Below are positions 21,430 to 62,270 of a DNA stretch of 64,000 bases, in pieces (position 1 is the stretch's first letter; the number at the start of each line of letters is the position of its first letter). Both the position numbers and the translations under genes were made by a program. Origin of the DNA: Agapetus fuscipes (Eukaryota > Arthropoda > Insecta > Trichoptera > Glossosomatidae); the NCBI GenBank assembly GCA_951799405.1, contig OX637356.1:10563229-10627228 (forward strand), written 5' to 3'. Under the pieces are notes generated by a model, which was given only the letters and a program-made list of their open reading frames with translations, did not search any database and was not told where the DNA came from.

Positions 21430-21715
21430 TTGAATTCATCATAACTATTCTAGAAAAAAAAAGTGTTGAGTGGAAGACAACGAAATAAGACACATTTTGA
21501 AGAGGAGACTCAAGTTAATAGGACACCCGATTAGACATAGTAACTTCTTTAGGAACATTTATTATTTGAAGGAAAAATCTGAGGAAGACGGTAAGACAAG
21601 ACAAGGTCAGGAAGACAAGAGGTCCCCCAAGAACCTCATACTTCCAGGACTTGAAGCGGCTCATGGATGCCTCATCCTATTCGCAGTTAAAAAAGATAGC
21701 AACCAATAGAGACAG
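21430..21715 (+). pseudogene. LINE reverse-transcriptase C-terminus, source of the 37-bp array
   Basis: The frame reads LKRRLKLIGHPIRHSNFFRN and KTRQGQEDKRSPKNLILPGL, ending in KKDSNQ and a stop at about 21709. The order KRRLKWIGH..RH, then GKxxRGRPR-like, then a C-terminal basic stretch is typical of insect non-LTR retrotransposon ORFs. Here the GRxRxPR block has decayed to GQEDKRSP. The last codons before the stop are the first unit of the tandem array that follows, so the array arose from this 3' end. Confidence 0.65.
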
Positions 21716-21775
21716 ATTTTAGAAATTTAGAAATAGCAACCAATAGAGACAGATTTTAGAAATTTAGAAATAGCA
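21697..21775 (+). repeat. 37-bp tandem array, left part
   Basis: Two units of 'agcaaccaatagagacagat'-'tttagaaatttagaaat' (37 bp). The array is cut by a LINE-A insertion and resumes at 22233. Confidence 0.9.
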
Positions 21776-22232
21776 ACATTTGAAAGAAGTATGTAAGGAT
21801 AGAAAGAAATGGCGGTTGATCTGTATGTTGTAATGGATGTTGGCGGCTAGGGTTTATTAAAGTGAAATTTGTTTTATGTTTTAGTTTTTTTTTTGATGTC
21901 CATGACCATGTTTATATTATAATATTGTTTATTAATTTTAAAAATGTAATTTGTGATGTTTGTTCCTTGACTTATAGGTTGGTATGCGGCTGACCACCCA
22001 TACTGTAAAAAATAAATAAAAAAAAATGGTTCACTTTGCCAATGTCACCCCTGTTTCAGGGAAGGACGGGAAGAGTTGCAGGGCTTATGTTCATTTGAGA
22101 TTGGGTTTTTATATTGCAGGTCCACATGCGGCATGTGTTAGCGCGAAATTATACATGTCTGCTTGTGGGAATGCATTTAATATAAATCTTAAATGATATA
22201 TATCTTTGCAGCTTAGATTAGATTAGATTAGA
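21776..22232 (+). mobile_element. LINE-A inserted into the 37-bp array
   Basis: Begins in the ORF end (KEVCKDRKKWRLI-type codons), with the 'gttggcggctag' stop region, then the 3' UTR and the tail unit, ending in four TTAGA-type repeats at about 22217-22236. There is little or no target duplication (at most 'aac'). Confidence 0.88.
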
Positions 22233-22700
22233 TTAGAACCAATAGAGACAGATTGTAGAAATTTAGAAATAGCAACCAATAGAGACAGATTGTAGAAATT
22301 TAGAAATAGCAACCAATAGAGACAGATTTTAGAAATTTAGAAATAGCAACCAATAGAGACAGAATTAAGAAATTTAGAAATAGCAACCAATAGAGACAGA
22401 TTTTAGAAATTTAGAAATAGCAACCAATAGAGACAGATTTTAGAAATTTAGAAATAGCAACCAATAGAGACAGATTTTAGAAATTTAGAAATAGCAACCA
22501 AGAGAGACAGATTTTAGAAATTTAGAAATAGCAACCAATAGAGACAGATTTTAGAAATCTAGAAATAGCAACCAATGGAGACAGATTTTAGAAATTTATA
22601 AATAGCAACCAATAGAGACAGATTTTAGAAATTTATAAATAGCAACCAATAGAGACAGATTTTAGAAATTTAGAAATAGCAACCAATGGAGACAGATGGC
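22233..22700 (+). repeat. 37-bp tandem array, right part
   Basis: About twelve and a half 37-bp units with few substitutions. Some have 'tgtag' for 'tttag', and one has 'aattaag'. The last unit ends near 22697. Confidence 0.92.
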
Positions 22701-31614: not shown

Positions 31615-31883
31615 ACACACAAATTTCCTCCGTATAAACTGATACCCCTTTAGGTGAAGGACATTTGCTCTCCAAGACACCGTAGGGCCGGCTTATAATT
31701 AAGTGTCAGAGGGAACAATGAAGATGTATGTGCCCTCAGAGACTCATCCCCGACTATTCCGAGATAGACTCCCGGCATTCGTAAGAAACTACCAGAAACA
31801 GCATTCAAAGTACGGTAAATTACAGAGCTTCGTATTACTGTACAGACTTTACTTAAGTATATTGGGGCGAGCATTGATTTACC

Positions 31884-32110
31884 TAATCTAATCTAAGTTG
31901 CAAAGATATGTAACATTGGGGATTCACATTAAATGCATTGTCACAAGCAGACACGTACAAGTTCACGTTTGCGCATGCCGCATATGAACCTACAACACAA
32001 AAACCAAATCGCAAATGGGCATACACCCTGAAACTCCTGCCGACCTCCCCTGAAACAGGGGTGACATTGGCAAAGTGAACCATTGTATACAGCCGCATAC
32101 AAACCTGTCT
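31884..32110 (-). mobile_element. LINE-A 3'-end copy
   Basis: Nearly complete tail unit, lacking the 'catgggtggtc' stretch. Confidence 0.85.
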
Positions 32111-32272: not shown

Positions 32273-32371
32273 ATTTAGCGGATAATGCCATTTACTAAAG
32301 CAGTATAATTTTAAACGATCGTTGTTATTGATATCATCAAAATTAATAGATCATTTACTGTCCAGCCAGCG

Positions 32372-32404
32372 CACAGACAAGTATTTCTACCCAAAACGTG
32401 GCCA
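32372..32404 (+). repeat. Left terminal inverted repeat of the Transib-like element
   Basis: 33 bp starting CACAGACAAGTATTTCTACC and ending in ACGTGGCCA. It differs from the right end at one position. Confidence 0.93.
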
Positions 32405-32638
32405 TAAATCAAAATTTTCAACTTTCACTCCTAGCGGCAACATTGTGTCCCAAAGCAGGATAGATAACGTGACCACCCTTAAATGAACTCGTTACCCGAA
32501 TTGGTCACCCCAGTCCGTGGCAGCACCAGTCGGAACCTAGAACTCGCAGATGACGTTCATTTTTTTTCGCGACATTTCACAAACAACTGTTCTTTTGCTG
32601 TGTGTTTTCGTATGTTAAAAGTGAATACTGTGACAAAA

Positions 32639-34229
32639 ATGAATATGGATATCGTAGATCAGGGTATGTACAGTATTTTGAATGTTAATTTATTTGTGTT
32701 TCAATCTTTGTTCAATTATATCGAGTAGTTTAACTATTTACTTAAAATATTTTATCTTTTTCGTCTTTTTGAACCAACATTAGTCTTTTTGAATATATGC
32801 AACAGCCCGCAACAGTATCAGACCTGCTTGGCATTATACTTTAATATATCTTCTATAACTCCAGCTATCAAAAACATTCACAAGTTTTCACATCGCAGAA
32901 AAAAATACTTATGAACCCACTCTTTAGTGGTGATTCTAAATAACATATTTTTGTATTGTTGCAGACATTGCTCATTCTGTCGTGTCTATGAGCAGAAAAC
33001 AGCTACATGAGTTGGTTAGAAGAAGTTCTCAACGATTGCTTGACAGAAAAATCGAAGATTTAACTGAAAAAATCGTGGATTTAACAAAGTGTCCTCCTAA
33101 AAAAATGGATGACCTTCAAAAAATTATAAAGGTGTTCAAAGTTGTGTATCAACGAAAATGGCTTGCGTGTAATAGTACCGAAGCTCGTTTCCTAGAAAAT
33201 AACAACGAATGGCTTAGCGAAGAAATTGCATTACCTGCTGGACCGATTCCCGGAAGTTCGAAAGGCCGCCCGAGTAAAGAATTCTGGGAATCCAGTGATC
33301 GAACAAAGCGTCGCAAAACAATGGATCTTCGAAATAATGTGCCCGTTGAAGAACTAACATACGCTGCACAAATGAGTCAAAGGTCAGCGGGTAACAAGGA
33401 TGTCGCTAAGGTGATACAAGAAGTGACCAAATCTCCAACGAGGGCTATGAAATTCCGTAAAGTAGCTATGATTCGTAGTAAAACCAAAACTACCAGGAAA
33501 CATACTCCAGAGGTAGCTTTGAGCATATATGTCGAAGCTAGTATGACTGTTAGTCAATACGAGGTCATTCATCAGGCCAACAAAGAGGTATATCCATGCT
33601 ATACCTATGTACAAAGGGCTAAAGATGATTGTTACCCACCAAAAAACGTCAGTGAGACAGTTGCATAAGTGAAACTTCAAGATTTAGTGGATCACACATC
33701 ATCACGACTCTGTAAATATTTGGAACCAGTTCTCCAACAGTGTTTTCAGTACACAGACACAGTTTTAACCCTTATATATAAGTGGGGGTGTGATGGATCA
33801 ACTCAAACACAATACAAACAAAAATTCGAAGAAGACGCCAATAGTGATGCCAACATATTTATGAGTTCTCTTGTGCCCCTTCGTCTGATGTGTGCAGATA
33901 AAATTATATGGCAAAATATTCAACCATCATCACCAAGGTATTGCAGACCAATACGGATCCGTTATGTCAAGGAAGACAGAGATATAACCAATGAAGAAAT
34001 CAACTACATTGAAAACCAGGCCCGAAATCTTCAAGTAACTAATGTAACTAATACATTAAGAGTAAACCATGTACTTCTTCCAACAATGGTCGATGGAAAA
34101 GTATGCAACGCAGCCACTAATACTGCTTCCAAATTGCGTTGCTACATATGCGGTAAAACTTCGAAGAATTTTAACGATTTGTCATCTACAAACCTGGAAA
34201 ATCCTGCGACATTGAAAAAATCTTTTTAG
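32639..34229 (+). pseudogene. Transib/RAG1-like transposase, broken and C-terminally truncated
   Basis: Exon 1 (ATG at 32639, with another in-frame ATG at 32612) ends MDIVDQ at 32663. A GTATGT...TTGTTGCAG intron (32664-32964) joins it in frame to exon 2 from 32965. Exon 2 reads to a single in-frame TAA at 33666-33668 and then continues in the same frame to 34229. After the stop, YKWGCDGS places the first catalytic Asp at codon 33792-33794. VDGKVCNAATNTASKLRCYIC places the second Asp at 34092-34094, followed 16 residues later by a CxxC. In RAG1 the same order is CDG (D600), YDE (D708), then CxxC 19 residues on. The third acidic residue and the whole C-terminal third are missing (about 430 codons, against 600-700 in Transib transposases), so the protein cannot be active. 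A downstream internal deletion is the likely cause. A domesticated RAG1-like gene is less likely, because the terminal repeats are intact. Confidence 0.82.
32664..32964 (+). other. Predicted intron in the transposase gene
   Basis: GTATGT donor and a T-rich TTTTTGTATTGTTGCAG acceptor. Removing 301 bp keeps the frame across the junction (Q, then D from G plus AC). Confidence 0.65.
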
Positions 34230-34519
34230 TTAAAATAAGTTATTCATAGGATGTGCTACTTATTGATTGTTAGTTTTATTTAATATGTGTTTTGTATTTC
34301 CTTTATGTACCTAACATAAGATCATATTTAGATATACCTGTGTGGATTAAAATAAAAAATAAAAATAATAAATATTTGCCAAAGACTTACTTTTTTATTT
34401 TTCGTAAAATTAAGTAGGTAGGTACGTGGTAGGTACCTAATTTGCAGTGCTACATCATTCAAATCACGTTTTTAGTCATTTGGTACCCTGTTGACATAAA
34501 AAAAGTGACAAAATATTTT

Positions 34520-34552
34520 TGGCCACGTTTTAGGTAGAAATACTTGTCTGTG
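34520..34552 (-). repeat. Right terminal inverted repeat of the Transib-like element
   Basis: Complement of the left end over 33 bp with one C/T difference. It is followed by the CAGCG target duplication. Confidence 0.93.
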
Positions 34553-34557
34553 CAGCG

Positions 34558-35055
34558 TACAGAATTTAGTGGCCGGTTGCCATGACAGCGCTGCCCACTG
34601 GTCTTTACCATATAGCCTGGATAATACTTACATAATACCTATATACATTATATCATCCAAAAGATGACCTATATATTATACAGACTAAGTATTAGAATAT
34701 GTTTGACATAGTTAATACACGTATAATATATACCATACAAAATGTCGCTCCCAGACATCTTGCATAGGTTGCTTAAAATATTTTGGCTGCAAAGGGTCTA
34801 CTCCACAATGTCGAAGGACAAAAAGTGGCCCACATATTCATGGCAAAGAACATAACAAAAATACACAAAACATTCTTCTAACAGTTCAGTTTGTCCCTCT
34901 TTAGCGTACGAGAGAAACGTCATCTGATGGCGTCGGATACGACTCCGATGAAATGTTGAGGAACATTTTCTTCTGTTTGTAAAATGTCTAACAATAGTAA
35001 TTAGAATTTCAAATTATTCTTAAATATACATGTAATATAATTTTAAAATCAACTT
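34558..35055. other. No gene seen
   Basis: AT-rich unique-looking sequence. Confidence 0.45.
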
Positions 35056-48685: not shown

Positions 48686-49104
48686 AAAAAAAATCATAAC
48701 TAATTTTTGATAAAAACGTAAATTATTCCTTTTAACCGTCGAAATGTTTTCATTCACACTCTGCTTTCATACAATTTCAATACAGAAAGTTCCTAACAAA
48801 GTAGATCATAAGGCGAGTACGCGTCTTTTACTTCAGAACAAAGTCACAAATTTGCATGTCGAGTCAAAGGGCGCGGATTCCGCGGGAACTTTGCTATAAT
48901 GAAAATCTAGTTGCCGGCTCCGCAGTTGTACTAATGAGGACGCGACAAAAGTGAGTGCCAGAAAGCCTACGCGGGAAACTGGGGTTAATATTAAAACAAG
49001 GCTAGTTAATCAGATTATTCAAAAGTTAATACATCACCGAATACAATAGTGTTTTAAAATTGACACTTCTAAGAAAATTCTTCTTTTCTTTTTTCTCTTT
49101 TCTC
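48686..49104. other. No gene seen
   Basis: 48820-48990 is GC-richer without a recognisable frame. Confidence 0.4.
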
Positions 49105-49108
49105 GAAA

Positions 49109-51151
49109 GAGATTCTCGAAAACAGCAACGATAATGGTATGAGAGTCATCCACTTTGCCTCAGCACGACAAATGTCAATCATGGGCACAATTTTTCCACA
49201 CAAAGAAATCCACAAGGGAACGTGGAAGTCTCACGATGGTAGAACAATGAATCAAATCGACCACCTTCTCGTTGAAAGGAAACATCTAAGAATGATTCAT
49301 GATGTTCGGAGCTATCGGGGGGCAGACTGTGACACAGATCACTTCCTGTCTGTGACAATTTTCAAAGAAAAAATACTGAGTCATAATAAATCAAAACCGT
49401 CTACAAGACTAAGATATAATCTGGACATCCTGAACAATAAAGAGGGATTAGAAAGGTATAGAAAAGGCATCAATGACCAATTGCACAACCTGAGTGAGAG
49501 TCAGGTGGCAACTGAAGAAATAACTGAAGCCAGTGATAACCAGTACTTGGAATTTCATATGTCTCAAGATGAAGTCATGGATGAAGTCTCAAGTGTGGAA
49601 GAAAGTGATCCTACAGCAAACCAGCTGAGGGTTGAAGAGTCTTGGAAGCTAATTATGCAGGTCATTAAGCAAACTGCTGAAAAGGAGATTGGGAAGATGG
49701 ATCAACATGCAAGTAAGCCATGGTTTGATGAGGAATGCAGACGTGCTGTTATGTGGCGGAAGGAACTCAGAAACTGTCTTCTTCAAGGAAGTAACCAAAA
49801 CCTGGAGAATGAATGGAAAGGAAGAAAAAGACAAGTACGAAACCTCTTGAGAGCCAAAAAACGCTTGCATCATAAGCGGCTGATGGAGAAGCTTGAGAGT
49901 GACAATAGGGATGGAAGGAACTCTAGGAAATTCTTTGATTTCGTCAGAAAGGCGAAGTGTGGATCTCAACAGCGTAGTAGCCAGATAATGGATGAACAGG
50001 GAAACATCATTGCTGATCGAGATCAAATACTTGACGTGTGGAAGAATCATTTCACTGGATTGCTGCGAGGTGAGAGTCCGGATAATCCTTTGCAACCATC
50101 TAGAGTTCTCACGGTGGAACCCGAAGTTCCTCCACCAAGTCGAGATGAGGTAGTACAGGCAATTAAGAGTTTAAAGAAGTCAAGATCTCCTGGAAACGAT
50201 GATATCCCTGCTGAGTTACTGAAATGTGGCGGAGAAGCATTAGAAAATGCTCTGTGGGGTCTTTATCAGGATGTTTGGAAACATGAGGTACTGCCAGATA
50301 GCTGGAAAGTTGCACTATTGTGTCCAATACATAAAAAAGGAGACAAAATGCTATGCTCTAATTATAGAGGTATCTCACTTCTCCCAGCGGCATACAAAAT
50401 ATTGTCTAATATTCTGCTAAGAAGAATTATACCATATGCTGAATGTGCTCTTGGAGAGTACCAAGCAGGTTTCAGAAGGAATCGGAGCACAACGGACCAG
50501 ATCTTTTCTTTGAGGCAAATATTAGAGAAGAAGTGGGAATATGCTCAAGATACTCATTGCCTTTTTGTCGACTTCAAGACTGCTTATGACTCAGTGCATC
50601 GTTTGGGGCTGTGGAGCGTTTTACGAGACTATGGAATTCCTGGAAAACTCATCAAACTGGTTCAGATATCCATAGAAAATTCAAGAGCTCAAATACTGCT
50701 GCAGGGACAGGTCTCGGATCCCTTTGAGATCAGTTCAGGCCTAAAGCAGGGTGACGCCCTTTCTCCATTGCTCTTCAACCTAGCCTTAGAAAAGGTTGTG
50801 AGAGAAACCAAACCTGTGTATGGTGGAATCACCATAGGAAGTACCATTAGGCTGCTGGGATATGCGGATGATATGGTGCTTCTGGGAGAGAACGCTGCAC
50901 AGCTCCGGGCGCTCTTCTTACCAATGGAGAGAATGGCAAGGAGGATAGGATTGAGAATTAATGAGGGGAAAACTGAATACTTGCCTGTGGCGCGGCGGGA
51001 TATTCAAGAAGATTTGAATGTAGATAATTACAAGTTTAAGAACTGCAATTCATTCAAATACTTGGGTACCCTTATAAATGACAAAAATATCCTATCCTCA
51101 GAATTACATGCCCGAATTCACTCCGGCAATAATGCTTTTTTTTGGCCTTAG
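49109..51151 (+). pseudogene. RTE LINE endonuclease/reverse-transcriptase ORF, main part
   Basis: ENSNDNG and MRVIHFASARQMSIM are in frame before and after the first ATG (49139), so that ATG is internal and the endonuclease N-terminus is lost. Residues counted from 49139: 1-80 are the endonuclease C-terminus (NQIDHLLVERK, then GADCDTDHFLSV with the catalytic SDH-type TDH). Residues 340-400 open the reverse transcriptase (SPGNDDIPAEL, LCPIHKKGDK). QAGFRRNRSTTDQI follows, then motif A VDFKTAYDS with Asp 478, motif B SSGLKQGDALSPLLFN, and motif C YADD at 575-578. The catalytic residues I can check are intact. The frame ends at 51151 because of an extra T in a T8 run at 51136-51143. The protein would copy RNA at nicked target DNA. 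Confidence 0.88.
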
Positions 51152-62150: not shown

Positions 62151-62270
62151 ATGCCAACGACACGCAGTGTACCTGAGCGGTTACCCATCCAAGTACTGTC
62201 CGCGCCCAATGTTGTTTAACTTCGGTGATCTATGGGAACCGGTGCTTTCAACATGGCTAACGTCGTTGAC
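62151..62270 (-). rRNA. 5S rRNA-like sequence, full length
   Basis: On the minus strand, from GTCAACGAC to TCGTTGGCAT, the 120 bp align end to end with insect 5S rRNA. The terminal arms still pair (GTCAACGAC with TCGTTGGC-type). The internal promoter is mostly kept: box A GAAGTTAAACAACAT, the intermediate element GGGCGCGG, and box C AGTACTTGGATGGGTAACCG with one change (GTGACC to GTAACC). About fifteen substitutions relative to a typical insect 5S, several of them C-to-T type, and no T-run terminator follows. So it is a dispersed pseudogene or the head of a 5S-derived SINE (SINE3) rather than an active gene. It stands alone, not in a tandem array. Confidence 0.85.

Follow-up and report, generated by a model that had tools for sequence, protein, structure and literature searches.

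Transib transposons are relatives of the enzyme that shuffles antibody genes, and theirs is the superfamily nearest to RAG1, whose signal heptamer is CACAGTG. In another superfamily, the P elements, internally deleted copies with intact ends are mobilised in trans. The structural reference for Transib is HzTransib from Helicoverpa zea (Protein Data Bank entries 6pqn, 6pqr, 6pqu, 6pqx, 6pqy and 6pr5), the sole Transib among the solved structures that we found by sequence, with D126, D225 and E436 reported as catalytic residues in PMC6941560. The reported Transib target is CGNCG (PMC4735498, PMC5704228), and Subgroup II is described as lacking the alpha11-alpha12 (RAG2-binding) region and as carrying a GRP motif in a region resembling the nonamer-binding domain (NBD) of RAG1 (PMC9435367); in the recombination signal sequence (RSS) that RAG recognises, the nonamer is separated from the heptamer by 12 or 23 bases (PMC8355894). 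Here we examine a stretch of 64,000 nucleotides from the trichopteran Agapetus fuscipes (assembly GCA_951799405.1, contig OX637356.1, positions 10,563,229 to 10,627,228 of the forward strand; hereafter the window), which holds at 32372-34552 a 2181-bp element that very probably belongs to a recently mobile family of Transib DNA transposons, of which it is a non-autonomous copy with an internal deletion. The reading is supported by a Transib match in both sequence and predicted fold, and by 23 two-ended copies at different sites in the genome, 20 of them with a perfect target-site duplication. The element is thus an ordinary deletion derivative of a known superfamily and not a new kind, and it is a clean example. 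A preliminary description made from the letters of the window had proposed a Transib/RAG1-like transposon at these boundaries with relatives elsewhere in the genome, and our results support it on all three counts.

The element lies on the forward strand between two perfect copies of CAGCG (32367-32371 and 34553-34557), the duplication that the preliminary description had reported, and its ends are common to all 23 two-ended genomic copies. The left terminal inverted repeat (32372-32409, + strand) and the right one (34515-34552, - strand) agree at 36 of 38 bases; the first 33 mismatch once, at base 21, just as had been claimed, and the likeness continues as far as 38-39 bp. The 20-base end CACAGACAAGTATTTCTACC stands at 32372-32391 (+) and 34533-34552 (-), and with up to three mismatches it has two matches in the window, against none in 100 shuffles. 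Across 32300-34620 the longest exact inverted repeat is 21 bp, made of 20 bases from the ends and one of the duplication, compared with at most 18 bp (mean 12.3) in 200 dinucleotide shuffles of the same interval. Both ends of the window copy open with the heptamer CACAGAC, so that the likeness to the RAG heptamer claimed earlier holds for the shared CACAG and not for the heptamer as a whole, and both carry an AAAA block at bases 22-25.

Between these ends runs a single reading frame on the + strand (32940-34229), interrupted by an in-frame TAA at 33666-33668. A putative short first exon (32639-32663, opening with ATG and reading MNMDIVDQ-) is followed by a GTATGT donor at 32664 and a putative intron (32664-32964) that closes with a TTGCAG acceptor, and the frame then joins that of the transposase; this candidate exon and both splice signals also occur in all 10 of the long copies described below. 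The N-terminal part of the transposase (32965-33668) is closed by the TAA and contains GRP codons at 33264-33272, invariant in 18 of 18 aligned rows and also in a 55-row alignment of a sister copy. The catalytic half (33669-34229) runs up to the deletion and ends with three further codons and a stop. It holds a first catalytic Asp in CDG (33792-33794), a second in DGK 100 residues further on (34092-34094), and the CxxC of the zinc-binding region (34140-34151, its two Cys conserved in all 18 rows), in the order and at the spacing given in the preliminary description. What is missing is the C-terminal third, the part that would hold the catalytic Glu: the frame stops three codons past the point at which 17 relatives continue for another 171-262 residues. 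Because of the in-frame stop and this loss, the window copy, to judge from its sequence, cannot work alone.

The second half of the transposase alone reaches HzTransib (6pqn) at E 2e-27 and the first half more weakly at E 1.5e-5, so that both halves of exon 2, for which the preliminary description had proposed such a check, match the same protein. The read-through frame, with the stop as X, retrieves 588 proteins at E <=0.001; among the best 120 listed, the near-full-length ones mostly measure 620-720 residues, and the named relatives nearest to the window transposase are mostly from beetles, the closest from Brassicogethes aeneus. An 18-row profile of relatives ranks HzTransib first (E 3.7e-151), amphioxus RAG1L second (1.9e-11) and RAG1 third (1.4e-5 and weaker), an order that bears out the proposed superfamily. 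The reach to amphioxus RAG1L is also the point that speaks for a RAG-like (RAGL/ProtoRAG) transposon instead of a Transib; on neither strand do the six long copies with unbroken frames contain a further long frame of the kind that a RAG2-like gene would supply, and we give this alternative essentially no credence. Pfam is silent on the matter: none of three queries, the two halves and the read-through protein, has a hit above a curated cut-off, the first half drawing three weak hits to unrelated families (E 0.02 or worse) and the other two none, and a relative (P0006) reaches the RAG1 family (PF12940) only at E 0.031, under the cut-off.

The correspondence with HzTransib extends to the active site. 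The chain positions aligned to CDG, DGK and EARNK become D126, D225 and E436 when 17 is added, with an equal offset at all three, and the Glu is found in 16 of 17 relatives (P0063 lacks it). Asp, Asp and Glu at the HzTransib positions in an unbroken frame are found in 6 of the 10 long copies, and the window copy has the two Asp only. The order of the catalytic residues, the CxxC and the Asp-Asp spacing (100 residues here, 99 by the numbering of PMC6941560) are all shared, as are symmetric ends, reported for HzTransib in PMC8289069, and in a predicted model of a full-length sister 466 residues of the catalytic core superpose at 2.3 A. At the same time, sequence identity to HzTransib is about 38%, and the sister protein is some 150-170 residues longer at the N-terminus, with the GRP, than the solved chain. 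Much closer are four unnamed Transib-like proteins, one from Brassicogethes aeneus (P0063, 77% identical to the full-length sister), one from Ceutorhynchus assimilis (P0066, 70%), and P0064 (72%) and P0065 (70%), which differ in sequence and were compared as proteins alone; all four have the N-terminal region in common with the sister, and the C-terminal end too except for P0063, which is cut short. No relatives of P0063 were confirmed in viral contigs, and the exact 20-base end was absent from the genome-contig and viral-contig collections. Subgroup II would be a candidate placement: the alignment to HzTransib passes through the zinc-binding region with no large insertion, and GRP is present. 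With RAG1 and amphioxus RAG1L the family shares the fold, the catalytic layout and a heptamer that starts with CAC, as expected of Transib ends with an RSS-like heptamer; it differs from them in its nearly symmetric ends, in reading CACAGAC against CACAGTG, and in that no RAG2-like gene was seen.

The assembly (618 Mb in 148 contigs) was searched with the element, and the counts from this search are lower bounds. It contains at least 12 copies of 2174-2181 bp, the window copy included, together with split-match copies and fragments; the split arises in long copies, which match element positions 1-1846 and 1844-2181 with extra DNA in between. Twenty-three two-ended copies could be delimited, 13 short (L001-L012 and L021, about 2.1-2.2 kb) and 10 long (L013-L020, L022 and L023, mostly about 2.9 kb; 2908 against 2181 bp). 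The TAA and a 727-bp deletion go together: every one of the 13 short copies carries both, and no long copy carries either. In the window copy the junction of the deletion lies at 34215-34217, within A-rich sequence, and comparison with one long copy puts the end of the deletion in the run of A that follows the transposase stop, where the junction shows an A-rich identity of a few bases. Six long copies (L013, L014, L016, L017, L018 and L020) have an unbroken frame of 666 codons with both Asp and the Glu, the very full-length relatives that a search with the ends had been expected to reveal; the other four (L015, L019, L022 and L023) are interrupted, with deletions in L019 and L023 and an insert in L022. 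Five of the 10 combine the frame with two unaltered tips and a perfect duplication, the right tip of L014 being altered.

With at most two mismatches the 20-base end has 50 matches genome-wide, against none for the reversed pattern; the 23 copies account for 46 of them, and two belong to the one-ended pieces L025 and L028, one each. One-ended or internal fragments (L024, L025, L026 and L028) stand outside all copy counts, and L027 is the same copy as L009 and was counted once. CACAGAC is found on both ends of 21 of the 23 copies, the right end being changed in L009 and L014. Of the two mismatches between the ends, the one at base 21 recurs in every one of the 23 copies, the one at base 34 in 22 of them, and both are therefore older than the copies. 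Among the pieces outside the counts, L028 (position 501, G000:C5:7347198) is a solitary 25-bp family end followed by unrelated DNA, and no partner end with the same five bases behind it occurs within the 3.2 kb read downstream. L022 (G000:C15:2624900-2630058) is a long copy whose insert of about 2.25 kb is flanked on each side by 8 bp of element sequence.

The sites of insertion are those of a Transib. By position, the 20 perfect duplications read C in 19, G in 16, any base, C in 16 and G in 16; eight fit CGNCG exactly, 11 are one base off and one is two off, so that 19 of 20 fall within one mismatch, compared with a background of 1.9% of window positions. The preliminary description's claim of 5-bp, GC-rich duplications of the Transib type is thus confirmed across the family.

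We believe that the short form is best read as owing its spread to its full-length sisters, acting in trans, by analogy with KP and the P elements, where autonomous and internally deleted copies likewise stand side by side in Drosophila (PMC10299278). In such a scheme the transposase of the long copies would bind the ends common to both classes, cutting might proceed through hairpins, as has been reported for HzTransib and RAG, and copies of either length would be pasted into CGNCG sites. A single origin of the deletion is probable, through faulty repair or slippage between A-rich stretches, and the deleted copy would then have multiplied in trans. Divergence and phylogeny, computed on 22 copies with L022 left out for its insert, are consistent with this history. 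Short copies diverge from one another by 0.46% on average and long copies by 0.88%, the mean between the classes is 1.19%, and 11 fixed differences separate the two; in the tree the 13 short copies form one group apart from the nine long ones (branch support 100/99), and the group is nearly star-shaped, the form that a burst from a single source would leave. The low divergence within each class suggests that the movement of the family was fairly recent, and the near-identical pairs L011/L012 and L016/L017, joined by zero-length branches yet inserted with different duplications, point to recent jumps.

The two classes also differ in how their coding sequences have changed. In the 13 short and six unbroken long copies compared, 15 changes are silent and 12 replacing in the long class, against 8 and 30 in the short (Fisher p 0.008, with one new stop in the short class left out). 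The frame to the shared stop (226 codons) is kept in seven of the 13 short copies and broken before or around that stop in six, five of which end after 24-204 codons while the sixth, after a change of frame, reads on to 232. On these counts the long form appears to be under constraint and the short form does not, and both the contrast in changes and the broken short frames are expected if only the long form yields a working enzyme. These data bear on a different account of the short copies, in which they would be a KP-like regulatory element whose truncated N-terminal DNA-binding protein represses the transposase and for that reason spread. The part before the stop does hold the GRP region that resembles the RAG1 NBD, seven copies do retain the frame, and KP itself makes up 11 of 16 P copies in one Drosophila strain (PMC10299278). 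Nonetheless, six copies have lost the frame, and changes before the stop (3 silent, 12 replacing and the new stop) look much like those after it (5 silent, 18 replacing), small counts in which the short protein shows no sign of being kept by selection. The lack of constraint on the short form speaks against a kept repressor, repressor function is without evidence here, and the P elements belong to another superfamily; we regard this account as very unlikely.

Several points weigh against a recently mobile family with a trans-mobilised short form. No movement, transcript or protein has been observed. Three of the 23 copies (L009, L014 and L023) lack a perfect duplication, the right side of L009 being readable as its duplication once a loss of two bases ahead of it is allowed for, and the bootstrap of the tree had not settled. 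The silent and replacing counts are small and come from a nominal frame with gapped codons skipped; they are counts of rows and not of independent events, since L011/L012 and L016/L017 are near-copies, and the choice of unbroken long copies itself favours the long class. Finally, the short copies lie on average 0.24% from their class majority, a distance compatible with a long time, and present-day activity therefore does not follow. Of the recent active source claimed in the preliminary description, the fairly recent movement stands. The absence of observed activity, along with the four broken long copies, would also suit an old, dead relic whose copies are alike through gene conversion or assembly artefacts. 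Such a relic is hard to reconcile with copies on many contigs flanked by different perfect duplications, with six of 10 long frames unbroken, and with silent changes that outnumber replacing ones among the long copies of unbroken frame, and we consider it highly improbable.

The useful part of this family is its full-length sisters, which have unbroken frames and an N-terminus that reaches beyond the solved HzTransib chain. A region with GRP resembling the NBD has been published for Transib before (PMC9435367); here the profile match of the GRP region to the RAG1 NBD is weak (hhalign E 0.002-0.004 in one comparison, probability 8-15%), with E 0.4-0.9 in six column-shuffled controls, and the AAAA at bases 22-25 falls within the nonamer position of a 12-spacer signal. 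We raise only tentatively, and consider rather unlikely, the stronger proposal that the family is mobile today, with an autonomous form that retains a RAG1-type nonamer-binding region not seen in the solved HzTransib chain and a short form that it mobilises in trans. If the region does read the A-rich block of the ends, the long and short pair would show the role of the nonamer reader before RAG. Besides HzTransib there is now a family that has full-length copies with unbroken frames, nearly identical ends, an extra N-terminal region and a natural deletion derivative, and it offers a ready test of which parts of a RAG1-like enzyme and of its ends are needed. What is known of the origin of RAG is unchanged by the element.

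The rest of the window holds other repeats. A dispersed repeat of about 210 bp, for example at 31883-32095, has 34 matches at E <=1e-10 in the 64 kb, of which 23 are at least 150 bp long (the query counted) and 14 of these 23 run in the + direction. A tandem array with a 37-bp unit occupies 22237-22697 (12.5 copies, 96%), and the rotated unit recurs 2.2 times at 21696-21777. At 49073-51148 (+) lies a reverse-transcriptase frame of a non-LTR-like retrotransposon, whose best relative among 120 listed is 43% identical and whose closest named relatives among them come from a leafhopper, a cockroach and a moth. A full-length match to 5S ribosomal RNA (62152-62270, - strand, 76.5 bits) is all that Rfam yields for the window at gathering scores.
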